Part shown: piece by piece, positions 21,615 to 37,845 of the stretch | How positions within the stretch are numbered: position 1 is the stretch's first letter | How the letters are laid out: each line of letters starts with the position of its first letter | NCBI GenBank assembly: GCA_003220495.1 | Contig: QHSP01000017.1 | Span: forward strand, 1-64,000 | DNA: 64,000 bases | Direction of reading: 5' to 3' | Source: Candidatus Rokuibacteriota bacterium | Lineage (GTDB): Bacteria > Methylomirabilota > Methylomirabilia > Rokubacteriales > CSP1-6 | The notes under the pieces: model-generated | Database searches by the model: none | Seen by the model: the letters and a program-made list of their open reading frames with translations, nothing else | Told to the model about the DNA's origin: nothing | Program-made: the position numbers and the translations under genes

Positions 21615-21617
21615 CCG

Positions 21618-22412: not shown

Positions 22413-22416
22413 GGGC

Positions 22417-23169: not shown

Positions 23170-24638
23170 GCCCCGCCGGCGTCGGCGGTCGGCTCGCGCG
23201 GGGCGTCACCCTCGTCGCCTCGATCGTCTTTGCCTCGCCCGCGCTCGTCGCCGCGCAGGCGGGGAACGCGATGGCCGGCAAGGCCCTTTACGAGTTGAGG
23301 TGCGTCGGTTGCCACGGCGAGAAGGGCGACGGCAAGGGGCCCGCCGCCGAGCTCGTGGTGCCCAAGCCGCGCGACTTCACGACGGGCCTCTACAAGATCC
23401 GGACCTCGGCGAACAAGGCGCCGACGGATCAGGACCTCTTCCGCATCATCACCGATGGGATGCCCGGGACGTCGATGCCGTCGTGGGCCGTCCTGCCCGA
23501 CAAGGAGCGCTGGAACCTGGTCGCGTACGTCAAGGCGTTCGCGGCGGACAAGTTCAAGGAAGCGCCGAAGAAGCTCGAGCTTCCCAAGGACGTCGCCTCG
23601 TCGGGGGAGTCGATCAAGCGCGGCAAGGAGATGTTCGAGGCGATCGAGTGCCACAAGTGCCACGGCACGGAGGGGCGCGGCGACGGGCCGTCGCGCGCCG
23701 AGCTGAAGGACGAGTGGGGCCATCCGATCGCGCCGGCGAACTTGACCAAGCGGTGGACCTTCCGCGGCGGTGCCTCCCGGACCGAGATCGCCACGCGGCT
23801 CGCCGCCGGTGTCCTCGGCACGCCGATGCCCGCGTTCATCGACAGCGTCGAGAAGCCCGAGGACATCTGGCATCTGACGAACTACATCCTGTCGCTCGGC
23901 CCCGACTCGCCGGGCTACGCGACGCTCGTCACGGTCACCGCGGTGTCGGACGCGATCCCGGACGATCCGAGCGCGGACTTTTGGAAGAAGCTCACGCCGA
24001 ACAACATCCCGCTCTTGGGCCAGGTGATCGTCGATCCGCGGAACTTCAATCCGTCCGTCGATCTCGTCTCGGTGCGGGCGGTGTACAACGACAAGGAGAT
24101 CGCGTTCCACCTGACGTGGGACGATCCGACCCAGTCGACCGCCGATCCCGGCAAGAAGCTCTTCGCCGACGCCATCTCGCTGCAGTTCCCGCCGCAGCCG
24201 ACGCCGGGCGTCGAGCGGCCGTACTTCCTGATGGGCGACGCCTCCGACGCCGTCTATCTCTTGCGCTGGGAGAACGGCAAGGGCGTGACCGAGTCGACGG
24301 CGAACGGTCCGACGAAGATCGCGGCGATCCAGGGCGCGGAGGCAACCGGCAAGGCGGTGTACGCGAACGGTCAGTATCGCCTCGTGATGAAGCGCCCCCT
24401 CGTGTCCAAGAGCGAGACGCGCCCGACGTTCGCGCCGATGGTCTTCATGCCGGTCGCGTTCCAGGCGTGGGACGGCGGCGCGGGGGAGAGCGGCACGAGG
24501 ATGTCGTTGACCTCATGGTACTATCTGCGGCTGGAGGAGCCGCAGTCGGGCCGACGTTTCGTCATTCCTCCGGTCGTGGCAATCCTCACATTGGCGGTGA
24601 TGCTGCTCGTGGTGCGAGTTGCAAATAGACGGGCATGA
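23166..24638 (+). CDS. dihaem cytochrome c fused to an ethylbenzene-dehydrogenase-type haem-binding domain
   Basis: This 490-residue protein starts at TTG 23166, overlapping the preceding stop. A signal peptide (TLVASIVFASPALVAAQ) leads into two cytochrome c domains, CVGCH (46-50) and CHKCH (162-166). A domain from about 270 to 460 (VSVRAVYNDKEIAFHLTWDDPTQ, ending VAFQAWDGGAGESG) resembles the gamma-subunit/EB_dh b-haem-binding fold of the DMSO reductase family. A C-terminal helix (VVAILTLAVMLLVVRVANRR) anchors it. It would hold three haems facing the periplasm. No molybdenum catalytic subunit is adjacent, so the EB_dh domain probably serves electron transfer inside the respiratory complex. 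Confidence 0.82.
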   Translation: MSPAGVGGRLARGVTLVASIVFASPALVAAQAGNAMAGKALYELRCVGCHGEKGDGKGPAAELVVPKPRDFTTGLYKIRTSANKAPTDQDLFRIITDGMPGTSMPSWAVLPDKERWNLVAYVKAFAADKFKEAPKKLELPKDVASSGESIKRGKEMFEAIECHKCHGTEGRGDGPSRAELKDEWGHPIAPANLTKRWTFRGGASRTEIATRLAAGVLGTPMPAFIDSVEKPEDIWHLTNYILSLGPDSPGYATLVTVTAVSDAIPDDPSADFWKKLTPNNIPLLGQVIVDPRNFNPSVDLVSVRAVYNDKEIAFHLTWDDPTQSTADPGKKLFADAISLQFPPQPTPGVERPYFLMGDASDAVYLLRWENGKGVTESTANGPTKIAAIQGAEATGKAVYANGQYRLVMKRPLVSKSETRPTFAPMVFMPVAFQAWDGGAGESGTRMSLTSWYYLRLEEPQSGRRFVIPPVVAILTLAVMLLVVRVANRRA

Positions 24639-24663
24639 CCCAAATTCAGGAGGATCAAGGGCA

Positions 24664-25362
24664 ATGCGCAAGGTAATCGGAGTGCTTCTGGCGATCGCGC
24701 TCGTGACGGGCGTCGCCCTCGTCGCCCACCGCCCCGGACCAGCCGGCGCGCAGGGCGGCGGGACGATCGAGGCGACGGTGACGTACGCCGGCACGCCGGT
24801 CGTCGAGAAGCTCAAGGTGAACAAGGACACCGAAAAGTGCGGGACCGAGGCGATGATCGAGAAGGTCGTGGTCGGCCCGAACAAGGGGCTGGCCAACGCG
24901 GTCGTGTCCGTCCCCAGCGCCAAGGGCGCGGCGAAGGCGGTGAAGACGACCGTCGATCAGCACGGCTGCAAGTTCGTGCCGCACGTGACCGCGATGACGC
25001 CCGGCGAGCTCGACCTCAAGAACTCCGACGACATCCTGCACAACATCCATACGTACTCGACGGCGAATCCGTCCATCAACAAGGCCCAGCCGAAGTTCAA
25101 GAAGATGATGACGGAGAAGTTCGAGAAGCCGGAGTTCGTCAAGCTGACCTGCGACGTGCACAGCTGGATGCTCGGCTGGGTGGCCGTCATGCCGAATCCG
25201 TTCTTCGGCGTGACCGACGCGGGCGGCAACGCCAAGATCGAGAACGTGCCGCCCGGCAAGTACGCGGTCGAGGCGTGGCACGAGACGCTCGGCAAGCAGA
25301 CGAAAGAGGTCGAGGTCAAGGCCGGGCAGTCCACGAAGGTCGCGATCGAGATGAAGAAGTAA
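24664..25362 (+). CDS. exported copper-type (amicyanin-loop) protein
   Basis: This 232-residue secreted protein has a signal peptide (residues 1-30), a cupredoxin-like core with candidate ligands His126 (DILHNIHT), Cys163, His166 and Met169 (CDVHSWM, the C-x2-H-x2-M loop of amicyanin), and a C-terminal carboxypeptidase-regulatory-like beta domain (VTDAGGNAKIENVPPGKYAVEAWH). A strong site, AGGAGG, precedes ATG 24664. It is a likely periplasmic electron carrier for the adjacent oxidase. A paralogue with the same loop closes the cluster at 32131. Copper binding is inferred from the motif. Confidence 0.75.
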   Translation: MRKVIGVLLAIALVTGVALVAHRPGPAGAQGGGTIEATVTYAGTPVVEKLKVNKDTEKCGTEAMIEKVVVGPNKGLANAVVSVPSAKGAAKAVKTTVDQHGCKFVPHVTAMTPGELDLKNSDDILHNIHTYSTANPSINKAQPKFKKMMTEKFEKPEFVKLTCDVHSWMLGWVAVMPNPFFGVTDAGGNAKIENVPPGKYAVEAWHETLGKQTKEVEVKAGQSTKVAIEMKK

Positions 25363-25383
25363 GAGCCAGGAGGCTCTGCGAGC

Positions 25384-26112
25384 ATGCTTGACTGGTGGCT
25401 GCCGGAGAACGTTTCCACGTACGGCCGGGAGATCGACTGGCTCTTCCACCTCATCTACTACATCACGGGCGTGACGTTCATCCTGGTCTTCGTCACGATG
25501 CTGGCGTTTCTCGTGATGTACCGCGATCGCCCGGGGCGGAAGGCGCGCTACACCCACGGCAACACCACACTCGAGATCGTCTGGACGGTGGTGCCGGCGC
25601 TGATCCTGGTCATCCTCACGCTGCTCAGCGTGCCGGCGTGGTCGAAGATCAAGATGACGATGCCGGAGACGGACTTCGTCGTGCAGGTGACCGCCAAGCA
25701 GTTCAACTGGCAGGTGACGTATCCCGGCCCCGACGGCAAGTTCGGCACGGCCGATGACAAGACGCTGCTCGACGAGATGCACGTGCCCGTCAACAAGGTC
25801 GTCCGCGTCATCCTGAAATCCCAGGACGTCATTCACAGCTTCTTCGTCCCCAACTTCCGGATGAAGCAGGACGCGGTCCCCGGTCGCGAAATCAGGCAGT
25901 GGTTCGAGGCGACCAAGCCCGGCAAGTACGAGTGGCCCTGCGCGGAGCTGTGTGGCTTCGGCCACTCGGGCATGCGGGGCTGGATCTACGTCCACACGCC
26001 CGACGAGTACGGGAAGTGGGCCGCCGAGAATCTGAAAGCCGAAGCGGCGGCCCCGGCCACCGCGGAGGCGAAGGCGGACGACCCCAAGAAAGAGGAGAAA
26101 GCCAAGAAATGA
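25384..26112 (+). CDS. coxB: cytochrome c oxidase subunit II (CuA)
   Basis: This 242-residue subunit has two N-terminal helices (about 20-46 and 63-83) and a CuA domain with all ligands visible: His151 (VIHSFFVP), Cys186, Glu188, Cys190, His194 and Met197 (CAELCGFGHSGM). There is no fused cytochrome c domain, so it is not a caa3 type despite the haem-rich neighbourhood. The C-terminal tail is Ala/Lys/Glu-rich. Its stop overlaps the COX I ATG (ATGA at 26109-26112). Confidence 0.95.
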   Translation: MLDWWLPENVSTYGREIDWLFHLIYYITGVTFILVFVTMLAFLVMYRDRPGRKARYTHGNTTLEIVWTVVPALILVILTLLSVPAWSKIKMTMPETDFVVQVTAKQFNWQVTYPGPDGKFGTADDKTLLDEMHVPVNKVVRVILKSQDVIHSFFVPNFRMKQDAVPGREIRQWFEATKPGKYEWPCAELCGFGHSGMRGWIYVHTPDEYGKWAAENLKAEAAAPATAEAKADDPKKEEKAKK

Positions 26113-27863
26113 GCGCCTCCAGCGCGACCGCTCACGCGCACGACGTGCACGCCGGCCATCACGAGCTCGGCTTCGTGCGGACGTACATCTTTTCGACGGA
26201 CCACAAGATGATCGCGCGGCAGTTCCTGTTCATGGGGCTCTTCATGATGGTCCTGGGAGGCTTGCTGGCGCTGATCGTGCGCTGGCAGCTCGCCTGGCCC
26301 GAGACGGCCGTGCCCGGCCTCGGCGGCATCCTCAAAGAGACCGGCGGCATCCTGGAGCCGAGCACCTACAACATGGCGTTCACCATGCACGCCACGATCA
26401 TGATCTTCTTCGTGATCATGCCGATCCTGGCGGGCGCCTTCGGAAACTTCTGCATCCCGCTCATGATCGGGGCGCGCGACATGGCGTTCCCGTTCCTCAA
26501 CATGCTGTCGTTCTGGGTGACGTTCTCCGCCGGCCTCATCATGCTCTCCGGCTTCTTCGTGGAGGGCGGCCACGCGGCCGCTGGCTGGACGTCTTATGCA
26601 CCACTATCGGCGGTGCCGTCGTATACCGGCGTGAACTGGGGCCAGAACATCTGGTGCATCAGCCTGTTCATCATGGGTGTCGGCTCCATGATGGGCTCGA
26701 TCAACTACATCACGACGATCATCAACATGCGGGCGCCGGGCATGCGGCTCTTCCGGATGCCGCTGGTGATCTGGTCGCTCTTCATCACGGCGATCCTGCT
26801 CCTGCTGGCCCTGCCCGTGTTGACCTCGGGTGTCGCGATGCTCCTGTTCGACCGCACGCTCGGCACCAGCTGGTTCCGCCCCTCGGGCGGTGGCGAGCCG
26901 CTGCTGTGGCAGCACCTCTTCTGGTACTTCGGCCACCCGGAGGTCTACATCCTCATCCTGCCGGCCATGGGCATCGCCTCCGAGATCCTGCCGGTGTTCT
27001 GCCGCAAGCCGATCTTCGGCTACCACGCGATGGCCTTCTCGATGATCGGCATCGCCTTCCTGTCGTGGATCGTCTACGGCCACCACATGTTCGTCAGCGG
27101 CATGAGCCCGGCGCTCGGAATGGCCTTCACCGTCACCACGATGATCATCGCGGTGCCCTCGGCCATCAAGACGTTCAACTGGCTGGGCACCATGTGGGGC
27201 GCGCGGATCCAGTTCACGGTGCCGATGCTGAACGCGCTCGCCTTCGTCTCGATGTTCGTCATCGGCGGGCTCTCGGGCATCTTCATGGCCTCGACGCCGG
27301 TCGACATCTACATCCAGGACACGTACTTCATCGTCGCGCACATCCACTACGTCGTCTTCGGCGGCTCGATCTTCGGCGCGTTCGCGGCGATCTACTACTG
27401 GTTCCCGAAGATGTTCGGCCGGATGACGAACACGGCGCTGGGCCATCTGCACTTCTGGCCGACGTTCGTGTTCTTCAACCTGACCTTCTTCCCGATGCAC
27501 ATCATCGGGGTCGGCGGCCAGATGCGCCGGATCTACAACCCGATGCAGTACGAGTTCCTCCAGCACCAGCAGCACTGGAACGTGATCATCACCTACAGCG
27601 CGCTCGCGCTCGGCGTCTCCCAGATCCCGTTCGTGATCAACTTCTTCTGGTCGTTGTTCGCGGGCAAGAAGGCGCCGCTGAACCCGTGGAACGCGAACAC
27701 GCTGGAGTGGACGGCGCCCTCGCCGCCTCCGCACCTGAACTGGGGCGCGACCTTGCCGACGGTGTACCGCGGTCCCTACGAGTACAGCTCGCCGGAATCG
27801 CGGGACGACTTCCTGCCGCAGTCCACGCCCCCGGTCGGGGCGGCCGGAGCGCGGCGGCACTGA
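26109..27863 (+). CDS. coxA: cytochrome c oxidase subunit I, haem-copper type A
   Basis: This 584-residue catalytic subunit has the low-spin haem His in TMHATIMIFF, the CuB/Tyr segment YFGHPEVYILILPAMG (the His-Pro-Glu-Val-Tyr crosslink helix; Glu present, as in type A1), the CuB pair GHHMFVSG and the haem a3/a His pair AHIHYVVFGG. It reduces O2 to water with proton pumping. The N terminus is His-rich (HAHDVHAGHHELG), possibly a metal-loading feature. It follows coxB with a 4-base overlap. Confidence 0.96.
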   Translation: MSASSATAHAHDVHAGHHELGFVRTYIFSTDHKMIARQFLFMGLFMMVLGGLLALIVRWQLAWPETAVPGLGGILKETGGILEPSTYNMAFTMHATIMIFFVIMPILAGAFGNFCIPLMIGARDMAFPFLNMLSFWVTFSAGLIMLSGFFVEGGHAAAGWTSYAPLSAVPSYTGVNWGQNIWCISLFIMGVGSMMGSINYITTIINMRAPGMRLFRMPLVIWSLFITAILLLLALPVLTSGVAMLLFDRTLGTSWFRPSGGGEPLLWQHLFWYFGHPEVYILILPAMGIASEILPVFCRKPIFGYHAMAFSMIGIAFLSWIVYGHHMFVSGMSPALGMAFTVTTMIIAVPSAIKTFNWLGTMWGARIQFTVPMLNALAFVSMFVIGGLSGIFMASTPVDIYIQDTYFIVAHIHYVVFGGSIFGAFAAIYYWFPKMFGRMTNTALGHLHFWPTFVFFNLTFFPMHIIGVGGQMRRIYNPMQYEFLQHQQHWNVIITYSALALGVSQIPFVINFFWSLFAGKKAPLNPWNANTLEWTAPSPPPHLNWGATLPTVYRGPYEYSSPESRDDFLPQSTPPVGAAGARRH

Positions 27864-27878
27864 TCGAGAGGGCGACCG

Positions 27879-28847
27879 GTGGCCTATCGTCTGGCCCTCG
27901 CCACGCTGGGCGCGACGTGTGTGCTCATCCTCCTCGGAGGACTGGTCACCAACACGGGGGCGGCCCTGGCCGTCCCGGACTGGCCGAGCACGTTCGGCTA
28001 CAACATGGTGCTCTTCCCGTGGTCGCGGATGGTGGGCGGGATCCTCTACGAGCACAGCCATCGGTTGATGGGCGCGCTCGTCGGCTTGCTCACCCTGGCG
28101 CTGGCCGGGGCGCTGTGGCGTGAAGGGGGCCGGTTGCGGCGGCTCGGCCTCGTCGCCGTGGCCGTCGTCGTCGCGCAGGGCGTGCTGGGCGGGCTGCGCG
28201 TCGTCCTGCTCGAGGACACGCTGGCGATCTTCCACGGCTGCCTGGCCCAGGCCTTCTTCGCGCTGCTCGCGGTGATCGCGCTGCTGACGGCTCCGGGCGG
28301 CCGCGCCGTCGCCTCGCCGGTCGAGCCCGCGCTGAAGGGGCTGGCCGTGCTCGCGGCCGTCCTCGTCTACGCGCAGATCGTCTTCGGCGCGCTCCTGACC
28401 CACGCCGGACGCATCGATCTCCACCTGGCGGGGGCCGTGCTCGTGTTCGTGCTGGTCCCGATCGTGGCCGCGCAGCTGCGTCGAACCGGCGACACGGTCG
28501 CCGCGCCGGTCTCGCGGCTCGTGAGCGTTCTGCTCGGCGTCCAGCTCCTGCTCGGCATCGGCAGCTTTCTGGCGAGGTTCTCGCCGATCTGGATTCCGGG
28601 CGAGCAGGCCACGGTGATCGCCCTGCCGGTCGCCCATCGACTGGTCGGCAGCCTGATTCTGGCCGCCACCGTCGTCCTCGCCGTCAGAGTGTCGTGGGCC
28701 GGTTCGCAACAGCAACCGTCCGAGCGCTGCGCGGGGAGCCACGCCGAATCCCCACCGGAACCGATCGAGCGGGCGCTGCGGAGCCGACACGCTTCTCTCT
28801 CAGGCCACCCTCGGTCAGAGCCGGCCTCATGGACCCCGCTACAATGA
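27879..28847 (+). CDS. ctaA: haem A synthase CtaA/COX15
   Basis: This 322-residue membrane protein has the haem-liganding segments YEHSHRLMGALVG, FHGCLAQAFF, a middle HAGRIDLHLAGA and PVAHRLVGSL. It converts haem O to haem A for the oxidase. GTG 27879 begins 15 bases after coxA. The last 46 or so residues, after the final helix, are polar and unlike the family; their 3' part is encoded by a 44-bp interspersed repeat (28799-28842). The stop overlaps the ctaB start (ATGA at 28844-28847). The tail is therefore likely a repeat-driven extension. Confidence 0.9.
   Translation: MAYRLALATLGATCVLILLGGLVTNTGAALAVPDWPSTFGYNMVLFPWSRMVGGILYEHSHRLMGALVGLLTLALAGALWREGGRLRRLGLVAVAVVVAQGVLGGLRVVLLEDTLAIFHGCLAQAFFALLAVIALLTAPGGRAVASPVEPALKGLAVLAAVLVYAQIVFGALLTHAGRIDLHLAGAVLVFVLVPIVAAQLRRTGDTVAAPVSRLVSVLLGVQLLLGIGSFLARFSPIWIPGEQATVIALPVAHRLVGSLILAATVVLAVRVSWAGSQQQPSERCAGSHAESPPEPIERALRSRHASLSGHPRSEPASWTPLQ
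28799..28842 (+). repeat. 44-bp interspersed repeat, copy 1
   Basis: Starts CTCAGGCCACCCTCG and ends CCCCGCTAC; 38 of 44 bases match the copy at 45524-45567 by direct comparison. Inner AGGCC/GGCCT arms could form a small hairpin. This copy lies inside the 3' end of ctaA, two bases before the ctaB ATG. Confidence 0.75.
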
Positions 28848-29770
28848 CGCCGCCGACCCTCGAGACGGCTCGCGTGTCGGCGGAGGCCGCGGTCGTCGCG
28901 CTGGCGCGCGAGCGCCGTCGCGTCGCCGCCGACCTCGTCGCTCTCACCAAGCCGCGGGTCGTCCTCATGGTGCTGGTGACGACCGTCGTCGGCTACTACG
29001 TCGGGCTCACCGGCGCGCCGGACTACGTGCGACTCGTTCACCTGCTGATCGGCACGATGCTGGCCGCCGGCGGCACACTCGCGCTCAACCAGTACTGGGA
29101 GCGGGACGTCGACGCCCGGATGGATCGTACGCGCGTGCGGCCGCTGCCGGACGGGCGGCTCTCGCCGCTCGAGGCGCTCGTCTTCGGCAGCGCGGTCACG
29201 GTCGCGGGTCTCGGCTACCTCGGCGCGTTCGTTGGAAGCCTCGCGTTGCTGGTGACCGCGGCGACGACCGTGCTCTACCTCTTCGCCTATACACCGCTCA
29301 AGCTCAGGACGCCGCTCTGCACGATCGTCGGCGCGGTGCCCGGCGCGCTGCCGCCCGTGACGGGCTGGGTGGCGTCGCGCGAAGGGTTCGGGCTCGGCGC
29401 CTGGGTCCTGTTCGGGATCCTGTTCCTGTGGCAGCTGCCCCACACGCTCGCGATCGCGCGTCTGTACCGCGACGACTACGCCCGCGCGGGCGTCCGCCTG
29501 CTTCCGGTCGTCGACGCCGACGGAACCTCGACCGAGCGGCAGATCGTCACCGGCTGTCTGGCGCTGCTCGCCGTCAGCCTGCTGCCGACCTTGATCGGTC
29601 TGGCCGGCCCGCTCTACTTCGTCGGGGCGTTCGTCCTCGGCGCGGCCTTCGTCGCGCTCGGGACCCGCCAGGCGCTGTCGCCGTCGGCCGGCGCGGCCCG
29701 GCGCGTCCTGTACGCGTCGCTGCTCTACCTGCCCGTTCTGTTGGCCCTCCTGGCCTTCGACAAGGCATGA
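28844..29770 (+). CDS. ctaB: protohaem IX farnesyltransferase (haem O synthase)
   Basis: This 308-residue UbiA-family prenyltransferase has the first Asp-rich motif NQYWERDVDARMDRT and a second Asp-containing loop (YRDDYARAGVRLLPVVDADG). It transfers farnesyl to haem B, giving haem O for CtaA. ATG 28844 overlaps the ctaA stop, so upstream in-frame starts are not needed. Its stop overlaps a 32-codon membrane gene (ATGA at 29767-29770). Confidence 0.95.
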   Translation: MTPPTLETARVSAEAAVVALARERRRVAADLVALTKPRVVLMVLVTTVVGYYVGLTGAPDYVRLVHLLIGTMLAAGGTLALNQYWERDVDARMDRTRVRPLPDGRLSPLEALVFGSAVTVAGLGYLGAFVGSLALLVTAATTVLYLFAYTPLKLRTPLCTIVGAVPGALPPVTGWVASREGFGLGAWVLFGILFLWQLPHTLAIARLYRDDYARAGVRLLPVVDADGTSTERQIVTGCLALLAVSLLPTLIGLAGPLYFVGAFVLGAAFVALGTRQALSPSAGAARRVLYASLLYLPVLLALLAFDKA

Positions 29771-29865
29771 CCAGCGACACACGGAACCGACAGACCCTGC
29801 GGCTCCTCCTGACGATCGTGGGCGCGCTGATCGTGGCGGCCTTCCTCATCGGGATCCGCTGGTGA
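29767..29865 (+). CDS. 32-residue single-helix membrane protein in the oxidase operon
   Basis: This is MTSDTRNRQTLRLLLTIVGA followed by LIVAAFLIGIRW. It is a basic N-terminal stretch and one membrane helix. It is placed between ctaB and subunit III with coding overlaps at both ends (ATGA at 29767-29770 and GTGA at 29862-29865), which strongly supports real translation. It resembles in size and placement the small single-helix proteins found in many haem-copper oxidase operons, but I cannot name a family. A role in oxidase assembly or stability is inferred. Confidence 0.75.
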   Translation: MTSDTRNRQTLRLLLTIVGALIVAAFLIGIRW

Positions 29866-30524
29866 CGACCGTCACCGTCGAGCGCCCGCGGCGTGCCAAC
29901 GGACACGTTCCGCCGCCGCCCCCGCCGACGGGGGGCGGGGACGGTCCCGATCGCGAGCCCGGGCCGCGCCGGCCCTTGCTGGACAACGTCAGGCTCGCGA
30001 TGCTGTTCCTGATCTGCGGCGAGGTGATGTTCTTCGGTGGGCTCATCTCGGCGTTCCTCGTCTTGCGGGTGACCGCCGCGCAGTGGCCGCCTCCGCTGCA
30101 ACCCCGGCTGCCGGTCGGCGTGACCGGCGTCAACACGCTGGTGCTGCTCGCCTCGAGTGTCGCGATCGCGGCGGCGAGCCCCGCGCTCGTGCAGCGCGAC
30201 CCAGGCACGCTCGTGCGCCGGCTCCTGCTGGCCGGGGGCCTCGGCGCCGCATTCTTGCTCGTGCAAGGCTACGAGTGGATTCGGCTCGTCGGCTACGGGC
30301 TCACGGTCGGGTCGGGCGCCTACGGCACGACGTTCTACACCGTCATCGGGACCCACGCAGCGCACGTGGTCGCGGCGGTGGTGTGGGTCGGCGTCACCGC
30401 GTGGCTCGCCGCCTGCGGCCGTTTCGTCGACGGCCAGACGGGCGCCTTGCGGGCGTGCGCGATCTACTGGCACTTCGTCGTCGCGCTGTGGCCGATCCTC
30501 TACGTGGCGGTCTATCTCGTATGA
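29862..30524 (+). CDS. coxC: haem-copper oxidase subunit III (first copy)
   Basis: This 220-residue subunit has a Pro-rich cytosolic N terminus (residues 10-40) and five helices. Characteristic segments are ICGEVMFFGGLISAFLVLR, GYEWIRL, TFYTVIGTHAAHVVAAVVW and the closing IYWHFVVALWPILYVAVYL. It is the short, five-helix type of subunit III. GTG 29862 overlaps the previous stop. A second subunit III lies 275 bases on, which is unusual. Confidence 0.88.
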   Translation: MTTVTVERPRRANGHVPPPPPPTGGGDGPDREPGPRRPLLDNVRLAMLFLICGEVMFFGGLISAFLVLRVTAAQWPPPLQPRLPVGVTGVNTLVLLASSVAIAAASPALVQRDPGTLVRRLLLAGGLGAAFLLVQGYEWIRLVGYGLTVGSGAYGTTFYTVIGTHAAHVVAAVVWVGVTAWLAACGRFVDGQTGALRACAIYWHFVVALWPILYVAVYLV

Positions 30525-30802
30525 AGATCCCGGCGCTGGCGGCGCTGGTCCTGATCCTGACGTCGCGGTCGGTGCTGGCGTGCGCGACGTGCATCGCCTC
30601 GCCGTTCGGCGATCAGGCCTACACCTGGCCGTACCTCGGCCTCATCCTGCTGCCGTTCGGCCTGATGGCCGCCATCGCCGGAATTCTCGGCTATCTCAGT
30701 TTGAAAGAGCGCCTCGGCTTCCGCCCGCGGACCATCGTGCGACGCCTGGTGGCGCACGTCGCCGCACAGGACGATCCTCAGATCATCAAGGAGACGACAT
30801 GA
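30521..30802 (+). CDS. small membrane protein with a CATC motif in the oxidase operon
   Basis: This 93-residue protein has a signal-like helix (IPALAALVLILTSRSVLA), then CATCIASPFGDQ and one membrane helix (YLGLILLPFGLMAAIAGILGYL), with a basic tail. CxxC without a following His excludes covalent haem; a copper or disulfide role is possible. Overlaps at both ends (30521-30524 and 30799-30802) tie it to the two subunit III genes. Similar small CPVC-type proteins occur in some bacterial oxidase clusters, but the function is unknown. Confidence 0.75.
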   Translation: MKIPALAALVLILTSRSVLACATCIASPFGDQAYTWPYLGLILLPFGLMAAIAGILGYLSLKERLGFRPRTIVRRLVAHVAAQDDPQIIKETT

Positions 30803-31413
30803 GTCAGGCAGCCGCGATGCACGGGGCGGTCGAGCCCGCCGAATCGCCGCTCACCCCCGAAAGCTGGGGAAAGCTCGGCATGTGGATCTTCCTGGCGGGC
30901 GACGCCGTCGGCTTCGGCACGTTGCTCGCCGGCTACGGCGCGATGCGGGCGACCAGCGCCGACTGGCCGTCGCCGTACGACGTCCTCGGCATCAACCTGA
31001 CCGCGCTCATGACGTTCTTGCTCATCTGCTCGAGCGTGACGATGGTCAAGGCCCTCGAGTGGCTCGGCAATGGGGACAAGATCCGGGCGCAGAAGTACCT
31101 CTTCTACACCGCGCTCGGCGGCGCCATCTTCGTCAGCCTGCAGGCCTACGAATGGACGCACCTGATCCATCGCGGTCTGCACATCAACGGCAACCCGTGG
31201 GGCGCCTCGCTCTTCGGGACCTCGTTCTTCCTGGTCACGGGCTTCCACGGCCTGCACGTCACCGGCGGAGTGATTTACTTGCTCTCGATCCTCCGGGTCG
31301 TCGCCCGACGGGCGCCCGAGGCCAGCTACAACGCGGTCGAGATCGCCGGCCTCTACTGGCACTTCGTCGACCTCGTCTGGATCATGGTGTTCACCTTCAT
31401 GTACCTCCTGTAG
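30799..31413 (+). CDS. haem-copper oxidase subunit III (second copy)
   Basis: This 204-residue subunit has family segments GKLGMWIFLAGDAVGFGTLLAGYGAM, QAYEWTHL, SLFGTSFFLVTGFHGLHVTGGVIYL and the closing GLYWHFVDLVWIMVFTFMYLL. It matches subunit III/CyoC-type proteins better than the first copy does (FFLVTGFHGLHV and the closing HFVDxVW). The two copies are clearly diverged, so they are not a recent duplication. ATG 30799 overlaps the previous stop. Confidence 0.92.
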   Translation: MSQAAAMHGAVEPAESPLTPESWGKLGMWIFLAGDAVGFGTLLAGYGAMRATSADWPSPYDVLGINLTALMTFLLICSSVTMVKALEWLGNGDKIRAQKYLFYTALGGAIFVSLQAYEWTHLIHRGLHINGNPWGASLFGTSFFLVTGFHGLHVTGGVIYLLSILRVVARRAPEASYNAVEIAGLYWHFVDLVWIMVFTFMYLL

Positions 31414-31425
31414 GGGGTCGAAGCG

Positions 31426-31755
31426 ATGGCGACGAGCGAGCACAAGCATCCCAACTACATGGCGATCTTCTGGTATCTTGCGATCCTCACCGTGGTCGAG
31501 ATCGCGGTGATCTACCTGCCGCTGCCAAAATTCACGATCGGCGTGCTGCTGTGCGCGCTGGCCCTCGGGAAAGCGGCGCTGGTCGCGATGTACTTCATGC
31601 ATCTCAAGTTCGAGACGCGGACGCTCGGCATGGTCGCCATCACGCCCCTGCTGATCGCCACCTTGCTGGTCTTCGTGCTCCTGCCGGACGGGTTCGCGGT
31701 CATGAAGCGGACGGTCGGCGTCAAGGCGGCCACGACCGAGCCCGCGAAGCATTGA
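31426..31755 (+). CDS. cytochrome c oxidase subunit IV family protein
   Basis: This 109-residue protein has three helices. ILTVVEIAVIYLP, ALGKAALVAMYFMHLKFETRTL and the following helix match the COX4-pro/CyoD family, including the KAxLVAxYFMHL signature. It stabilises the CuB site during assembly. It lies twelve bases after subunit III. Confidence 0.92.
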   Translation: MATSEHKHPNYMAIFWYLAILTVVEIAVIYLPLPKFTIGVLLCALALGKAALVAMYFMHLKFETRTLGMVAITPLLIATLLVFVLLPDGFAVMKRTVGVKAATTEPAKH

Positions 31756-31786
31756 GTGCGCTGCCCTGAGGCCGGCAGCGTGAGCG

Positions 31787-32155
31787 ATGGAATCGCAGCG
31801 GCTGGCCGACCGCCTCACGCGCGCCCTGGGCCGGGCGATCCGCCTGCGGTGTCCCCGCTGCGGAGCGACACCGCTCTTCCGCGGCTGGTTCCGGATGGCG
31901 GAATCGTGCGCCTTGTGCGGGCTCAAATTCGAGCGGGCGCAGGGCTACTTCGTCGGCGCGATCTACGTGAACTACGCGGTGACGACGATCATCGCGGTCG
32001 GTGGCTTCTTCCTGCTCTGGGGCCCGCTCGGGCTCTCCACCCGGGCCCAGCTCCTCGTCCTCGTCCCGATCGTGCTCGTCTTTCCCCTGTGGTTCTTCCG
32101 CTACAGCCGGAGCCTCTGGCTCGCCCTGGAGTGGTCGCTCAACCACGAGCCCTGA
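31787..32155 (+). CDS. DUF983 membrane protein
   Basis: This 122-residue protein has a cytosolic zinc-ribbon-like N terminus with CPRCG and CALCG, the GWF..A..C..CGL..ER..GYF signature of DUF983, and two membrane helices. DUF983 genes often neighbour oxidase or Surf1 genes, and that is so here. Function is unknown; a role in oxidase maturation is inferred from context. Confidence 0.88.
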   Translation: MESQRLADRLTRALGRAIRLRCPRCGATPLFRGWFRMAESCALCGLKFERAQGYFVGAIYVNYAVTTIIAVGGFFLLWGPLGLSTRAQLLVLVPIVLVFPLWFFRYSRSLWLALEWSLNHEP

Positions 32156-32913
32156 CGCGGCCGCGCGCGTGCGCCGCCGCGGCGTTCGGTCTCGTGCTCC
32201 TGCTGGCCGAGCCGGGCGGCGCCTACGAGGTGGCGACGGTGCCCGACGGCGGCACCGTCACGGGCACCGTGAAGTTCGTCGGCACGCGTCCGAAGCTCGA
32301 CCCGATCGCCGTGAACAAGAACCGCGACGTCTGCGGCCAGCACAAGCCGGCCGAAGCGCTGATCGTCTCCGCCGACCGCGGCGTCAAGGGCGGCGTCGTC
32401 CTGATCGAAGGGGTGGCGCGCGGCAAGAGGGGCGGCGGCGACGTCGTGCTGGACAACCACCAGTGTGTCTTCGTGAGCCACGTGACGGCGGTCGGTTTGA
32501 AAGATCGGGTCGCGATCCGGAACTCCGATCCGATTCTCCACAACACGCACGGCTTTCGCGGCCCGCCGACCGTGTTCAACGTCGCGCTGCCGACCAAGGG
32601 GCAGGTGATCGAGATCACGAAATATCTCAAGAGCCCGGGCGCGGTCCGCGTGCTCTGCGACGCGCATCCACACATGTCGGCGTGGATGATCGTGCACGAC
32701 AGTCCGTATTACGCGGTCACCGACGACAAGGGCGCGTTCCGCATCACCGACGTTCCGCCGGGGACCTACAAGGTCACGATGTGGCACGCCGGCTTCCGAC
32801 CCAAGGGCGCCGACAAGGACGGACGGATGCTGTACGACGCGCCGAGGACGGTGACGCGCGAGCTCGCGGTCGCCACGAAGGCGACCGCCACGGTGGACTT
32901 CGAGCTGAAGTAG
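32131..32913 (+). CDS. exported copper-type (amicyanin-loop) protein, second copy
   Basis: This protein of about 260 residues has a signal peptide (RACAAAAFGLVLLLAEPGGA) and a cupredoxin-like core with candidate ligands His137 (ILHNTHG), Cys176, His179 and Met182 (CDAHPHM). It ends in a C-terminal FxITDVPPGTYKVTMWH regulatory-like domain. It parallels the protein at 24664 throughout, so the oxidase cluster is bracketed by paralogues. No ATG is available; GTG 32131, overlapping DUF983 by 25 bases, is the last standard start before the signal peptide. Copper binding is inferred. Confidence 0.72.
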   Translation: MVAQPRALTRPRACAAAAFGLVLLLAEPGGAYEVATVPDGGTVTGTVKFVGTRPKLDPIAVNKNRDVCGQHKPAEALIVSADRGVKGGVVLIEGVARGKRGGGDVVLDNHQCVFVSHVTAVGLKDRVAIRNSDPILHNTHGFRGPPTVFNVALPTKGQVIEITKYLKSPGAVRVLCDAHPHMSAWMIVHDSPYYAVTDDKGAFRITDVPPGTYKVTMWHAGFRPKGADKDGRMLYDAPRTVTRELAVATKATATVDFELK

Positions 32914-32922
32914 CAGGCATTC

Positions 32923-33042
32923 GGTGGTGCGCGCTGCAGGCCGTCGCGGGGCTGGGGCCCCGCCGGCCGAGGCGTGCGTATAGGTGGTGCGCGCTGCAGG
33001 CCGTCGCGGGGCTGGGGCCCCGCCGGCCGAGGCGCGCGTATC
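32923..33042 (+). repeat. 60-bp GC-rich repeat, two tandem copies
   Basis: Two consecutive units at 32923-32982 and 32983-33042 differ at only a few positions. Each contains GGTGGTGCGCGCTGCAGG, GTCGCGGGGCTGGGGCCCCG and CCGGCCGAGGCG. Related copies lie at 46399-46454 (same strand) and, inverted, at 54853-54897 and 60055-60113. The GGGGC-TGG-GGCCCC core is self-complementary. All copies lie between genes. Confidence 0.9.
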
Positions 33043-33058
33043 GATAGAGGGGGACTTC

Positions 33059-34966
33059 ATGTTCAAGCACATCTGCGTACCGGTAGACAACTCGGACTGC
33101 TCGAACCGCGCGATCGACCTGGCGGTCGAGCTAGGCCGGACGTTCGGCGCCCGCCTCACGGGCGTGCACGTGTACGCGGCTCGCCTGCACGACTACCGGT
33201 TCAAGCAGATGGAGTACACCCTGCCCGAGGAGTACAAGGACGAGAACGAGCTCGAGCGCCAGCGGAAGATCCACGACTCGCTGATCGCGATGGGTCTCCA
33301 GCTCATCTCCGAATCGTATCTCGACGTCATGGCGAAGAAGGCGGCCGAGGCCGGGCTCGAGTTCGAGCCCAAGATGATCGACGGCAAGCACTACAAGGTG
33401 CTGATCGAGGACTGCCTGGCCGCCGAATACGACCTGGTCGTCATCGGCGCCCTCGGCATGGGCGCGGTCAAGGACAGCCAGATCGGCTCGGTCACCGAGC
33501 GGTTCGTCCGCCGCGTGACGCGCGACACCGTGATCGTGCGGAACGCCGACGCGTTGAAGGACCGGGAGGGCGCGATCGTCGTCTGCCTCGACGGCTCCCC
33601 GCAGTCGTTTAACGGCCTCAAGCTCGGGATCGCGCTCGCGGCGGCGCTCCATCGGCCGCTGCAGGCCGTCGCCGTGTACGATCCGTATCTCCACTACGCG
33701 ATGTTCAACGGCATCGTCGGCGTGCTGAGCGAGAAGGCGTCGAAGATCTTCCGCTTCAAGGAGCAGGAACAGCTGCACGAGGAGATCATCGACACGGGGC
33801 TCGCCAAGATCTACCAGTCGCACCTCGAGATCGGCAGAAAGCTCGCCGCCGACGCCGGGGTGGAGCTGGCGATCACACTCCTCGACGGCAAGTGCTTCGA
33901 GAAGATCCTGACCTTCGCCCGCAAGGAGCAGCCGTGGCTCCTCATCCTCGGACGGGTCGGCGTGCACTCGGACGCGAACGAGATGGATCTCGGCTCGAAC
34001 ACCGAGAACATCCTGAGGCTGGCGCCGTGCAACGTGCTCCTCACAGGCGGCAAGTTCTATCCGCCGCTCGACGTGAAGGCCGAGGAGATCATCTCGTGGA
34101 CCGCGGAGGCCGAGGCGCGGATGGAGCGGGTGCCGCCGCAGGTGAAGGGCGTCGCGCGCACCGCGCTCCTGCGCTACGCGATCGAGCAAGGGCACACCGT
34201 CATCACCAACAAGGTCATCGACGAGGCCATGGCGATCTTCATGCCGACGCGGATGGCCGAGCGCATGCAGATCCTGGCAGAGGACGTCGCGGTCGCGAAG
34301 CTGCGCGCCGAGTCGCAGCCGGCGACCGCCATCTGCTCGGTCTGCGGCTACACGGTCAAGGGCCCCAACCCCGTGGTCACGTGCCCGGTCTGCAAGGCCG
34401 CCGCCGACAAGTTCCAGATCATCTCGAAGGAGGCCGTGGAGGCGATCGCGACCCAAGAGGGCGGCGTCGAGGCCGAGGAGTCGATGCCGGGCGTGCAGGT
34501 GAAGTGGTCCGCCGAGGCGCGCGACGCCCTGCGCGAGGTGACCGACGCCTATCTCAGGCGCCGCGCGAAGGCGCGGGTCGAGAAGTACGCCCGCTCGCGG
34601 AAGATCCCGGTCATCACCTGCCAGCTCGCCCTGCCGATGATCGAGGAGACCGTCGGACGCGAGAAGCTCGGCGCCGGCTGGGACACCCTGCTCGCCAGGA
34701 CGAAGTTCGAGCCCGCCGACATGCCCGGCGCCGCGTCGAGCGACGCCGGCACCGGCTTCGGCTGGACCGAGGAAGCCACGGCGCGGCTCAATCGCGTCCC
34801 GGCCGGGTTCATGCGCGACATGACACGCGAAGAAGTGGAGCGCGTCGCGGCCGCCAAAGGCGTGACTACGATCGATCTCGCGGTGTGCGAGGAAGGCATC
34901 GGGCATGCTCGCGAGACCATGAACGAAGTGATCGCTGGGTACGTATCGAACAAGAAACCGCGATAA
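33059..34966 (+). CDS. tandem UspA protein fused to PCP_red-like and rubredoxin-like domains
   Basis: This 635-residue protein has UspA domain 1 (about 1-163, CVPVDNSDCSNRAIDLA, VVIGALGMGAV) and UspA domain 2 (about 170-332, VVCLDGSPQSFNGL, LLILGRVGVHS). Three PCP_red-like helical units follow at about 346-395, 483-532 and 569-622 (pattern W-x-x-EA-x-R-x-x-x-VP...EE...A). A rubredoxin-like ribbon, CSVCG and CPVC (Cys426, 429, 442, 445), sits between the first and second units. PCP_red segments are known from light-independent protochlorophyllide reductase and radical SAM tetrapyrrole enzymes. ATG 33059 follows AGAGGGGG. The next gene is a radical SAM protein with the same helical unit, so the pair may form a redox or cofactor-maturation system. 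Its molecular role is unknown. Confidence 0.8.
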   Translation: MFKHICVPVDNSDCSNRAIDLAVELGRTFGARLTGVHVYAARLHDYRFKQMEYTLPEEYKDENELERQRKIHDSLIAMGLQLISESYLDVMAKKAAEAGLEFEPKMIDGKHYKVLIEDCLAAEYDLVVIGALGMGAVKDSQIGSVTERFVRRVTRDTVIVRNADALKDREGAIVVCLDGSPQSFNGLKLGIALAAALHRPLQAVAVYDPYLHYAMFNGIVGVLSEKASKIFRFKEQEQLHEEIIDTGLAKIYQSHLEIGRKLAADAGVELAITLLDGKCFEKILTFARKEQPWLLILGRVGVHSDANEMDLGSNTENILRLAPCNVLLTGGKFYPPLDVKAEEIISWTAEAEARMERVPPQVKGVARTALLRYAIEQGHTVITNKVIDEAMAIFMPTRMAERMQILAEDVAVAKLRAESQPATAICSVCGYTVKGPNPVVTCPVCKAAADKFQIISKEAVEAIATQEGGVEAEESMPGVQVKWSAEARDALREVTDAYLRRRAKARVEKYARSRKIPVITCQLALPMIEETVGREKLGAGWDTLLARTKFEPADMPGAASSDAGTGFGWTEEATARLNRVPAGFMRDMTREEVERVAAAKGVTTIDLAVCEEGIGHARETMNEVIAGYVSNKKPR

Positions 34967-35082
34967 GCGCGGGCGAGGGGGTGGCTTACTTCCGGGTGTG
35001 GCCAATCACCATGCTTCGCGCGCGTGCGACGCTGCCGACACGGATCCGGGGAGGCACCCCCGCCACCCCCTCGCCCGCGCTT
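34965..35082. repeat. 118-bp element framed by 21-bp perfect inverted repeats
   Basis: Arms at 34965-34985 and 35062-35082 are exact reverse complements (first arm begins AAGCGCGGGCGAGG). The first arm starts at the last two bases of the UspA-fusion stop codon. The 76 bases between contain no gene. In RNA this would form a very stable stem between the two genes. It lacks a T-run, so it may be an mRNA-processing or partial-termination structure, or a small mobile palindromic element. Confidence 0.8.
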
Positions 35083-35132
35083 CCATGGATCCCGCGCGCT
35101 GTGCCCGTGTCGCCTGCCATGGGTCGCGTCGT

Positions 35133-36563
35133 ATGACCGAGCCTAGATCCTCGCGCTCCGCGGAGCCCGCTGCGGGCACGAACGTCGGCTCGACGGCGCC
35201 GTATACGGCGTATAGCGTGTCGTGGAATTTGACCCAGCGGTGCAATCTCGAGTGCTCGCATTGTTATATGTCGGCGTTCGCGGGCGCCGATACGCGGGGC
35301 GAATTGTCGACCCACGAGTGCCGGCGGGTCATGGACGAGATCGCGCTCGTCAACCCGAACGTCTTCCTGATCCTCACCGGCGGCGAGCCGCTGCTCCGCA
35401 AGGACATCTGGGACATTGCGGCCTACGCCGCGGAGAAGCGGTTCACGACGGTGCTCGGCACCAACGGCGTACTGTTGCGCGAGCGTGAGGCGAAGGCGAT
35501 GCGGGCGCACGGCGTCCTCGGCGCCTCGATCAGTCTCGACTCGATCGACCGCGCCAAGCACGACGGGTTCCGGCGCCTCCCGGGCTCGTGGGACGGCGCG
35601 GTGAGGGCCACGCGCGTCTTGACCGATGCCGGGCTCGACTTCTCGCTCCACATGTCGGTGACCGACTGGAACGTCGGCGAGGTGCCGGCGATGATCGACC
35701 TGGCGCGGGAGCTCGGCGCCAAGGTGCTGAACTTCTTCTTCCTGGTCAGGACCGGGCGCGGGAGGGATCTCACCGACATCGATCCGGCGGCCTACGAGCG
35801 GCTCCTGACCTATCTCGCGCGGGTGCAGGGTGTCGGCGGGGGCCCGCCGTCTTTCGTCCGAACGTTGCTCGGCGTGGGCGAGCGGCGGCCCGCGCAGGGC
35901 GCGGAGGCGTTCGAGGATCCGTGGTCGACACCGGTGGGCCGGAGCGACGGGCTCCTCATCAGGGCCAAGTGCGCGCCCCACTTCCGGCGGGTCCTCTACG
36001 AGATGAACCCGTCCTCGCCGCTGCTCCGGAACTATGCCCACGGCTCATGTCCGGCCGGCAAGTACTACTGCCGCATCACGCCGGAGGGCGACGTCACGCC
36101 GTGCCCGTACATGCCGGTCACCGCCGGCAACCTGCGCGAGCGGTCCTTCGCCGATCTGTGGCGCGCCGCGCCGGTGTTCGACGATCTGCGCGACCCTAAG
36201 CTCGGCGGGCGCTGCGGCGCCTGTGAGTTCGCGAAAATCTGTGGCGGATGCCGCTGCCGCGCCTACGCCACCCACGGCGACTATCTCGCCGAGGATCCGG
36301 CCTGCGGCTATCAGCCGGGCGCGCACGGCGGGACTCTGATCGACCTGCCGGCGTCGCTCACGTTCGGGCTGCCGGTCGACTACGAGCTCGTGTGGGACGA
36401 GGACGCGCGCGCGCGTCTGCAGGCGATTCCCTCGTTCGCGCGTGGAATGGTGATCAAGGCGGTCGAGGCCTACGCCCGCGGGCGGGGCGCGACGACGATC
36501 ACGAAGGAGCTGCTCGCGGACGTCCGCTCGACGTGGGGCGCCCGTTTCCGGGCCTCGTCCTGA
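35133..36563 (+). CDS. radical SAM/SPASM protein with C-terminal PCP_red-like unit
   Basis: This 476-residue protein has the SAM-cluster motif CNLECSHC (Cys37, 41, 44), a GGEPLLR segment, and a SPASM-type Cys set (SCPAGKYYCRITPEGDVTPCPYMP, CGACEFAKICGGCRCRA) for extra Fe-S clusters. The last 55 or so residues (LVWDEDARARLQAIPSFARGMVIKAVEAYA) are a PCP_red-like helix bundle. The layout resembles the NirJ/AhbC/AhbD branch acting on sirohaem-derived tetrapyrroles, but no other haem d1 or alternative haem genes are present, so peptide maturation is also possible. ATG 35133 is chosen as the start nearest the conserved region; in-frame ATG 35085 is an alternative. It overlaps the next gene by one base. 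Confidence 0.82.
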   Translation: MTEPRSSRSAEPAAGTNVGSTAPYTAYSVSWNLTQRCNLECSHCYMSAFAGADTRGELSTHECRRVMDEIALVNPNVFLILTGGEPLLRKDIWDIAAYAAEKRFTTVLGTNGVLLREREAKAMRAHGVLGASISLDSIDRAKHDGFRRLPGSWDGAVRATRVLTDAGLDFSLHMSVTDWNVGEVPAMIDLARELGAKVLNFFFLVRTGRGRDLTDIDPAAYERLLTYLARVQGVGGGPPSFVRTLLGVGERRPAQGAEAFEDPWSTPVGRSDGLLIRAKCAPHFRRVLYEMNPSSPLLRNYAHGSCPAGKYYCRITPEGDVTPCPYMPVTAGNLRERSFADLWRAAPVFDDLRDPKLGGRCGACEFAKICGGCRCRAYATHGDYLAEDPACGYQPGAHGGTLIDLPASLTFGLPVDYELVWDEDARARLQAIPSFARGMVIKAVEAYARGRGATTITKELLADVRSTWGARFRASS

Positions 36564-36988
36564 TGGACCGCTTCCGCCTCGCCGCGCACGCGTACCGGAC
36601 CTACGGGGTGATCTACTGGATCGGCGGCTTCTATCTCGCCATGCACGGGATCGGCGTGCGCGGTGGGCGCATGATGCAATCGGGCGTGGTGTGGATCGTG
36701 CTGGGGCTCGTCTTCATCGTGCTCATTCCGTATCTGCTCGCCCAGCGCCGAGCGTGGTTCGAGCGCTGGATCCTCTCACGGCGTGACTTCGCACGCGTGC
36801 TCACCGGGTTCATGGCCCTGCGGGCGTGGCATGTCCTGCAGGTCGCCGTTCGCCCGGAGACTGCCGGCGTGCCTGCGCCATGGGGCGGCGAGATCACCTT
36901 CCGCGCTGGCGCGATCGTGTTCCTGACCGTCACGATGGCGGCGCTCCTCGTGATCGCTCGGGCGGCCTGGGCGAAGGAGGCGGCGTGA
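36563..36988 (+). CDS. hypothetical membrane protein, three helices
   Basis: This 141-residue protein has predicted helices around YGVIYWIGGFYLAMHGIGV, VVWIVLGLVFIVLIPYLLA and FRAGAIVFLTVTMAALLVIARA, with basic loops. It starts one base inside the radical SAM stop (TGATG) and its own stop overlaps the Mrp-like GTG, so all three are coupled. I recognise no family. It could anchor the neighbouring radical SAM protein or the Fe-S ATPase at the membrane. Confidence 0.72.
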   Translation: MDRFRLAAHAYRTYGVIYWIGGFYLAMHGIGVRGGRMMQSGVVWIVLGLVFIVLIPYLLAQRRAWFERWILSRRDFARVLTGFMALRAWHVLQVAVRPETAGVPAPWGGEITFRAGAIVFLTVTMAALLVIARAAWAKEAA

Positions 36989-37845
36989 AGCGCTACAAGG
37001 ACATTGCCGGCGACGGCGGCTCGAACATCGCGGGCCAGGTCGAAGCCCAGCAGGGTCGGCTCAAGCAGCGGCTCGAGTCGGTGCGCGCGATCGTGGCCAT
37101 CGTGTCGGGCAAGGGCGGCGTCGGGAAGTCGACGCTCACGGCGAGCCTGGCGTGCTGCTTCGCGCTCGACGGCTGGAGGGTCGGCGTCCTCGACGCGGAC
37201 CTCAACGGCCCGACTCAGGCCAAGGTCCTCGGCGTGCGCGGCCGGCGCCTGCTCATCGCCGCCGGCGTCGTCGAGCCCCCGTCCACGGATCTGGGCGTGA
37301 AGGTGTTGTCGATGGATCTGCTGCTGCCCACCGACGCGGCGCCGCTCACCTGGGACGCGCCCGTTCAGGGCGAGGCGCACACGTGGCGCGGCGCCATGGA
37401 GGCGAACGTGATCCGCGAGTTCCTGGCGGACACGAACTGGGGAGCGCTCGACCTGCTCCTGCTGGATCTGCCGCCCGGCACCGATCGGCTCACGACGATC
37501 GCGTCGCTCGTGCCGACGCTCTCCGGCATCGTCGTCGTGACGATCCCGTCCGATGTGTCGCACCTGGTCGTGAGGCGATCGATCACCGTCGCCGCCAACA
37601 CGCGGGCGCCCGTCCTCGGGCTCGTCGAGAACATGGCGGGCCTCTTCGCGGGGCCGGACGCGGCCAAGCTCGCCGCCGATGCGGGGATCCCGTTCCTCGG
37701 GAGCGTCCCGTTCGATCGGGCGATCGCCGTCGCCGGCGACCAGGGCGATCCGTTCGTCGCCACGGCGCCCGAGCGCCCGGCCGCGATGGCTCTCCGGCGA
37801 ATCGCGGAGGGAATTCGGACCGCGCTGGGGCCGCGCCCGGCATGA
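36985..37845 (+). CDS. Mrp/NBP35-type P-loop ATPase
   Basis: This 286-residue protein has a deviant Walker A, SGKGGVGKSTLTASLA, switch Asp in VGVLDADLNGPTQ and LLLDLPPGTDRLTT typical of the Mrp/ApbC/Nbp35 Fe-S cluster carriers. The C-terminal CxxC used by some members is not visible and no N-terminal DUF59 domain is present. GTG 36985 overlaps the previous stop. Adjacent to a radical SAM enzyme with several predicted Fe-S clusters, it is a reasonable cluster-delivery partner. Confidence 0.88.
   Translation: MKRYKDIAGDGGSNIAGQVEAQQGRLKQRLESVRAIVAIVSGKGGVGKSTLTASLACCFALDGWRVGVLDADLNGPTQAKVLGVRGRRLLIAAGVVEPPSTDLGVKVLSMDLLLPTDAAPLTWDAPVQGEAHTWRGAMEANVIREFLADTNWGALDLLLLDLPPGTDRLTTIASLVPTLSGIVVVTIPSDVSHLVVRRSITVAANTRAPVLGLVENMAGLFAGPDAAKLAADAGIPFLGSVPFDRAIAVAGDQGDPFVATAPERPAAMALRRIAEGIRTALGPRPA

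Follow-up and report, generated by a model that had tools for sequence, protein, structure and literature searches.

Introduction

Bd-like oxidases of nitrite oxidisers and of other bacteria have been discussed either as terminal oxidases or as quinone-interacting complexes, and their function is unsettled. They are called conspicuous and enigmatic (PMC3578206) and their metabolic role is called undetermined (PMC6606698). Among radical S-adenosylmethionine (SAM) enzymes, AhbD is a coproheme decarboxylase (PMC7242693), a CX2CX5CX20-21C cluster motif is found in NirJ and AhbC, and CX12GX4C is the motif of two-cluster SPASM enzymes (PMC12505453). Here, we analysed 64,000 nucleotides of a Candidatus Rokuibacteriota bacterium (assembly GCA_003220495.1, contig QHSP01000017.1; hereafter the window, which is contig 100 of a 6-Mb draft genome). 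In this window, a radical SAM/SPASM protein ending in a PCP_red domain (rSAM-PCP) lies next to a fusion of Usp, PCP_red and rubredoxin domains (Usp-PCP), a small membrane protein (MEM) and a P-loop ATPase (MRP). Together with PCPsmall, encoded elsewhere in the window genome, these proteins form what we call the PCP module.

Most informative is that this module is a near-obligate partner of the bd-like oxidase, whose gene lies about 11 kb upstream of it in one common block. We propose, with a probability of roughly 0.5, that the five proteins act together in biogenesis, either making a heme for the bd-like oxidase complex or delivering one to it; by this complex we mean the bd-like subunit, its cytochromes c and an NxrC-like heme b subunit. 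In the open-licence literature, outside which most subscription journals fall, we found neither a published description of the module or of its link to the oxidase nor a paper on PCP_red outside protochlorophyllide reductase. The window genes concerned are the following.

33059-34966, plus strand: Usp-PCP, two Usp domains, three PCP_red domains and a rubrerythrin-type rubredoxin (CSVCG...CPVC); Pfam, AlphaFold2 (AF2) model, Usp domain 1 motif G-x2-G-x9-G-S
35133-36563, plus strand: rSAM-PCP, radical SAM and SPASM domains with a C-terminal PCP_red, NirJ/AhbD-like; Pfam, NCBIfam, AF2 model, cysteines
36563-36988, plus strand: MEM, small membrane protein; homologues in the clusters of relatives
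36985-37845, plus strand: MRP/NUBPL-like P-loop ATPase without CxxC loop; Pfam PF10609, 4.7e-61
19881-21614, plus strand: cytochrome bd-like oxidase subunit; PF01654, 1.2e-16, invariant H43, E130 and H208
21618-24638, plus strand: three cytochrome c genes, the third (23166-24638) with a C-terminal ethylbenzene-dehydrogenase/NxrC-type heme b domain; Pfam and NCBIfam profile

Co-occurrence of the PCP module and the bd-like oxidase

The bd-like subunit scores 60.8 bits against PF01654 (cut-off 26.2), and the window genome yielded no second copy. A wide score gap lies between strong bd-like matches and those of the canonical CydA-like kind, and the threshold was placed there after the scores had been seen; so defined, 132 genomes from three phyla have a strong match and 130 of them also carry PCP_red, the two that do not being 78% and 87% complete. 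In Methylomirabilota, the phylum of the window genome, PCP_red is present in 64 of 95 genomes: 57 have both PCP_red and bd-like, 7 PCP_red only, 2 bd-like only and 29 neither (Fisher test, 1.5e-15). A genus-stratified test on the seven mixed genera gave z = 4.16 (p = 3e-5). PCP_red is likewise found in all 39 bd-like genomes of Nitrospirota, where multi-copy PCP_red and bd-like occur together in 37 genomes, separately in 2 and 2, and are both missing in 77, as well as in 34/34 bd-like genomes of Gemmatimonadota. Nine Gemmatimonadota genomes have PCP_red only; in six of them open-frame length and score, the sole criteria used, fit the pattern of phototrophic BchB.

As controls, ferrochelatase did not track the module (p = 0.05), and COX1, present in 92/95 genomes of the phylum, is therefore not discriminating. 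The idea that the module simply follows aerobic respiration in general was rejected, COX1 being near universal. Altogether, a functional link between the module and the bd-like oxidase complex appears very probable.

Conservation, gene order and transfer of the module

A profile scan of contigs returned 80 loci, mostly from Gemmatimonadota and also from Nitrospirota, Nitrospinota, Acidobacteriota and Entotheonella. The module recurs in Methylomirabilota, Gemmatimonadota and Nitrospirota. Fixed across loci are the combination of radical SAM, SPASM and PCP_red in one protein, the partners with PCP_red and an accompanying bd-like oxidase. The cluster of Usp, rSAM, MEM, MRP and PCPsmall recurs across Methylomirabilota families, often by a cox cluster (our loci L043, L046 and L050) or by a bd-like cluster (L036 and L053). 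In Gemmatimonadota-type loci, the order MRP, PCPsmall, Usp, rSAM, bd-like, cytochromes c and, further on, cox is near-invariant in dozens of cases; the rSAM and bd-like reading frames abut or overlap, and a weak MEM homologue precedes MRP in about 18 loci. In the Nitrospinota locus L133, rSAM likewise adjoins bd-like. In those Nitrospirota loci that were examined, Usp-rSAM is located away from MRP-PCPsmall and no bd-like gene was found beside the module genes, so adjacency alone is not the source of the correlation.

In a Rokubacterium contig (JACPDG010000040.1, locus L055), rSAM, Usp, MRP and PCPsmall show 71-84% best identity to Gemmatimonadota-type loci and 30-50% to Methylomirabilota. The adjoining genes are of the native type, the bd-like subunit being 75% identical to that of the window and at most 66% to those of Gemmatimonadota, and the cytochrome c 61% versus 41%. 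These identities indicate that the PCP module was exchanged in place and in full for a horizontally acquired Gemmatimonadota version, next to an oxidase of native type. Given these mixed origins, the module appears to travel as a unit.

Proteins of the module

The original prediction placed three PCP_red-like units in the Usp fusion and one at the end of the radical SAM/SPASM protein, which the Pfam profile search confirmed. Against the curated cut-off of PCP_red (PF08369; 32.5 bits), Usp-PCP scores 92.5 bits as a whole protein and rSAM-PCP 52.8, and single copies score 56.2, 46.5, 44.1 and 30.6 bits. There are five matches genome-wide, four at the window locus (three above the cut-off and the one at 30.6 bits) and one on contig 47. 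The latter belongs to PCPsmall, a protein of 170 residues with a zinc-ribbon-like CxxC...CxxC N-terminus followed by PCP_red. All five copies sit in proteins other than BchB, and no BchB turned up in the genome; a role in chlorophyll or bacteriochlorophyll synthesis was rejected on this ground. The coupled starts that had been described also hold: the rSAM TGA and MEM ATG overlap at 36563, and the MEM TGA and the GTG start of MRP at 36985-36988. Finally, the gene pair of Usp-PCP and rSAM-PCP proved to be kept across several phyla in the neighbourhood survey. The assignment of MRP as an Fe-S carrier did not stand: its Walker motif GKGGVGKS is intact, and an 11-residue loop bearing the CxxC of most MRP relatives is deleted in the window copy, as it is in L054 and L055, which leaves the carrier label unsupported. 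MEM (141 residues) matches no Pfam family and has homologues in the same cluster of other Methylomirabilota.

In rSAM-PCP, Pfam recognises Radical_SAM (2.1e-21), SPASM (2.1e-10) and PCP_red (4.1e-14). Its NCBIfam scores are 303 bits for NirJ2, 296 for AhbD, 196 for NirJ and 173 for AhbC, all below the curated equivalog cut-offs (500-650 bits for NirJ/AhbC/AhbD), with lower values for PqqE (114) and mycofactocin (157). AhbD and NirJ2 are the best-scoring families for all 31 rSAM orthologues. The protein carries CX3CX2C and the auxiliary-cluster motif CX2CX5CX20C, with C361, C364, C370 and C391 invariant, as well as the CX12GX4C of two-cluster SPASM enzymes. A complete seven-cysteine SPASM-like pattern (C306...C391) is present. 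The AF2 model (predicted local distance difference test, pLDDT, 84; predicted template modelling score, pTM, 0.83) has PqqE, SkfB, SuiB and anSME as its closest solved folds. The window genome yielded no siroheme decarboxylase (PF17805), which among the PCP-positive genomes of the phylum occurs in two (G018 and G073) only. A NirJ/AhbC function in this genome was thus ruled out, and the substrate of rSAM-PCP is therefore not didecarboxysiroheme.

Usp-PCP matches Usp (2.1e-37, two stretches), PCP_red (1.6e-26, three stretches) and RUBY_RBDX (2.3e-9). Its AF2 model (pLDDT 74.8, pTM 0.53) resembles the tandem Usp proteins Rv2623 and TTHA0350 in the Usp part, the placement of the PCP_red units being unreliable. 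The first Usp domain has an intact motif of the ATP-binding type, G-2x-G-9x-G(S/T) (GALGMGAVKDSQIGS); in the second, the spacing is 10. The rubredoxin cysteines are intact in the window copy. Among Gemmatimonadota-type orthologues, neither of the two that were checked yielded the nucleotide motif, and the rubredoxin cysteines are missing in 66/66 Usp loci; neither feature is therefore a fixed part of the system.

Outside the module, other Nitrospirota have proteins that join PCP_red and a coproheme-decarboxylase/chlorite-dismutase-like domain (PF06778 5e-18, PCP_red 2e-14):

L204, 3083-4114: fusion of PCP_red and a coproheme-decarboxylase/chlorite-dismutase-like domain; Pfam
L205, 2823-3836: same fusion; Pfam
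L207, 3243-4316: candidate for the same fusion; by eye only

About ten further Nitrospirota PCP_red proteins are candidates for this fusion by their length. The fusions come from a group of Nitrospirota genomes without a strong bd-like match and are possibly an undescribed variant of heme synthase. By domain assignment, PCP_red is thus found in three late tetrapyrrole enzyme types: BchB, coproheme-decarboxylase-like proteins and rSAM-PCP. Proteins made almost only of two or more PCP_red-like units were also seen in or near the cluster (L038:5189-5980, L045:3503-4351, L050:1034-2728, L053:2269-3225 and L129:7271-8320); none was found in the window genome.

The respiratory block and heme genes of the window genome

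According to the codon-usage gene map and Pfam, the module lies at the end of a respiratory block of 18 kb (19881-37845) whose genes all run one way, flanked on both sides by genes in the opposite direction. Its order is bd-like subunit, three cytochrome c genes, CoxB, CoxA, CtaA, CtaB, two Cox3, Cox4, DUF983, a periplasmic protein and the four PCP-module genes. The middle part reads as follows, the names CtaA, CtaB, Cox3 and Cox4 being given by sequence character and position rather than by family search.

24664-32913, plus strand: periplasmic carboxypeptidase-regulatory-like proteins, CoxB, CoxA, CtaA, CtaB, two Cox3, Cox4 and DUF983; gene map, Pfam

His43, Glu130 and His208 of the bd-like subunit are invariant and are candidate heme b ligands; its matches to solved structures are weak. 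The NxrC-like domain of the third cytochrome c protein scores 113 bits against TIGR03477 (cut-off 170). The putative heme A and heme O synthases CtaA and CtaB (27879-29770) run in the same direction, 3-5 kb upstream of the module.

Elsewhere, the genome encodes a ferrochelatase flanked by frames that, read by eye, resemble hemE and hemY (region G000:C76:146336-149818; L209:8337-11819), suggesting a putative hemE-hemH-hemY operon. This arrangement is known from coproporphyrin-route bacteria.

Two repeats lie around the Usp-PCP gene. A GC-rich unit of 59-60 bp is duplicated in tandem (98% identical) at 32923-33041, directly upstream of its start. Between its stop and the rSAM start lies an inverted repeat with perfectly matching 21-nt arms and a 76-nt spacer (34965-35082; predicted RNA fold z = -3.8), which may represent either the insertion of a small palindromic element or a hairpin within the operon. 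No RNA element was found in the window.

Discussion

The link between the PCP module and the bd-like complex is well supported; its chemistry, that is a tetrapyrrole substrate, a product destined for the bd-like complex and a role for each partner, is what we infer. In the mechanism that we propose, rSAM-PCP would modify a side chain or the ring of a heme or porphyrin through SAM radical chemistry. The PCP_red units of rSAM-PCP, Usp-PCP and PCPsmall would serve as docking units for the tetrapyrrole or the enzyme, holding and passing on the pigment, while MRP would hydrolyse ATP for assembly and MEM would anchor the process at the membrane, where the oxidase is built. The strongest argument for PCP_red handling tetrapyrroles is the presence of the same domain in three enzyme types of late tetrapyrrole metabolism, and we regard a tetrapyrrole substrate as reasonably probable. 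That the product is a previously unknown modified heme, made by the PCP_red-bearing radical SAM enzyme as the dedicated cofactor of bd-like oxidases in Nitrospirota, Gemmatimonadota and Methylomirabilota, is a tentative proposal.

Several points weigh against a heme biogenesis module. By fold, the nearest solved structures of rSAM-PCP are PqqE, SkfB and SuiB, the protein reaches none of the curated cut-offs, and peptide-modifying enzymes also belong to the wider SPASM clade. PCP_red might be a general helical unit for protein-protein contacts. It occurs without a detected bd-like gene in 7 Methylomirabilota, 2 multi-copy Nitrospirota and up to 3 Gemmatimonadota genomes, several of these being incomplete or in fragments; part of the single-copy Nitrospirota genomes stayed unclassified. 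The Fisher p-values treat genomes as independent and ignore shared ancestry. More generally, the case is drawn from sequence, structure models and genome comparison.

The folds and the seven-cysteine pattern would suit a peptide- or protein-modifying enzyme, as SPASM proteins often are peptide maturases; rSAM-PCP would then modify a subunit of the oxidase complex post-translationally, with the PCP_red units as adaptors that gather partners. However, the scores of about 300 bits for NirJ2 and AhbD exceed those for PqqE and mycofactocin, and PCP_red is found elsewhere in BchB and in coproheme-decarboxylase-like proteins, which makes this explanation unlikely. If rSAM-PCP were instead an alternative general heme b synthase, acting as a coproheme decarboxylase without being specific to the oxidase, the coproporphyrin-like setting of the ferrochelatase gene and the fusions of PCP_red to coproheme-decarboxylase-like domains would fit, as would its close relative AhbD, itself a coproheme decarboxylase (PMC7242693). 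Yet what the module tracks is the bd-like oxidase rather than the demand for heme, since 31/95 genomes lack PCP_red while 92/95 have COX1-family oxidases, and ferrochelatase is not associated with it; we hold a general synthase to be distinctly unlikely.

There is a slim chance that the locus serves a redox or stress response, with the Usp domains as sensors of nucleotide or redox state that regulate the radical SAM enzyme and the ATPase. The intact nucleotide motif and rubredoxin cysteines of the window copy agree with it, and several Usp proteins of Nitrospira marina encoded beside induced operons, which may or may not include the Usp-PCP fusion, are up at low O2 (PMC8115632). Gemmatimonadota-type loci, however, keep the gene order with bd-like despite lacking these cysteines and, as far as found in the two orthologues checked, the motif. 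Lastly, respiratory genes commonly cluster, and the module could consist of chance neighbours with no common function; co-occurrence in three phyla, including Nitrospirota loci where the genes lie apart, and the replacement of the module as a unit in L055 render this highly improbable.

With heme biogenesis for the bd-like complex as the preferred reading, part of the original prediction is retained: an undescribed cofactor-modifying system agrees with a radical SAM protein of the NirJ/AhbD kind, with PCP_red in three tetrapyrrole enzyme types, with a conserved module and with our having found no paper on it. Control by a universal-stress-type sensor found no support, the Usp motif and the rubredoxin not being fixed, and the statement that no canonical tetrapyrrole pathway lies nearby was incomplete in view of CtaA and CtaB, recognised by sequence character. 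An accessory module that is a near-obligate partner and has a seemingly heme-modifying enzyme at its centre raises a testable question, namely which heme resides in the bd-like complex and what makes it. If our proposal is true, PCP_red would gain a general role in tetrapyrrole handling.

Among known systems, the module shares with BchB/ChlB of the dark-operative protochlorophyllide reductase the domain PCP_red (PF08369), solved alone (2kru and 2l09) and as the BchB/ChlB C-terminus, but its proteins lack the nitrogenase-like BchB core. AhbD, NirJ2, NirJ and AhbC are the top families for the rSAM orthologues and have the CX3CX2C and CX2CX5CX20C cysteines in common with rSAM-PCP, which differs from them by scores of about 300 bits against cut-offs of at least 500, by additional SPASM cysteines and by its C-terminal PCP_red; unlike NirJ/AhbC systems, its host genome has no siroheme decarboxylase. 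MRP has the P-loop domain (PF10609) and the GKGGVGKS of the Fe-S carriers Mrp, NUBPL and ApbC, whereas their CxxC ligand pair is deleted in the window copy. Term look-ups within PMC6606698 and PMC3578206 did not turn up the PCP/rSAM module. The bd-like/alternative NxrC clusters that these two papers describe in Nitrospira, Nitrospina and anammox bacteria resemble the window block in combining a bd-like oxidase, cytochromes c and a heme b protein of the DMSO-reductase-type II gamma (NxrC-like) kind, while the window block also includes a cox operon with CtaA and CtaB.

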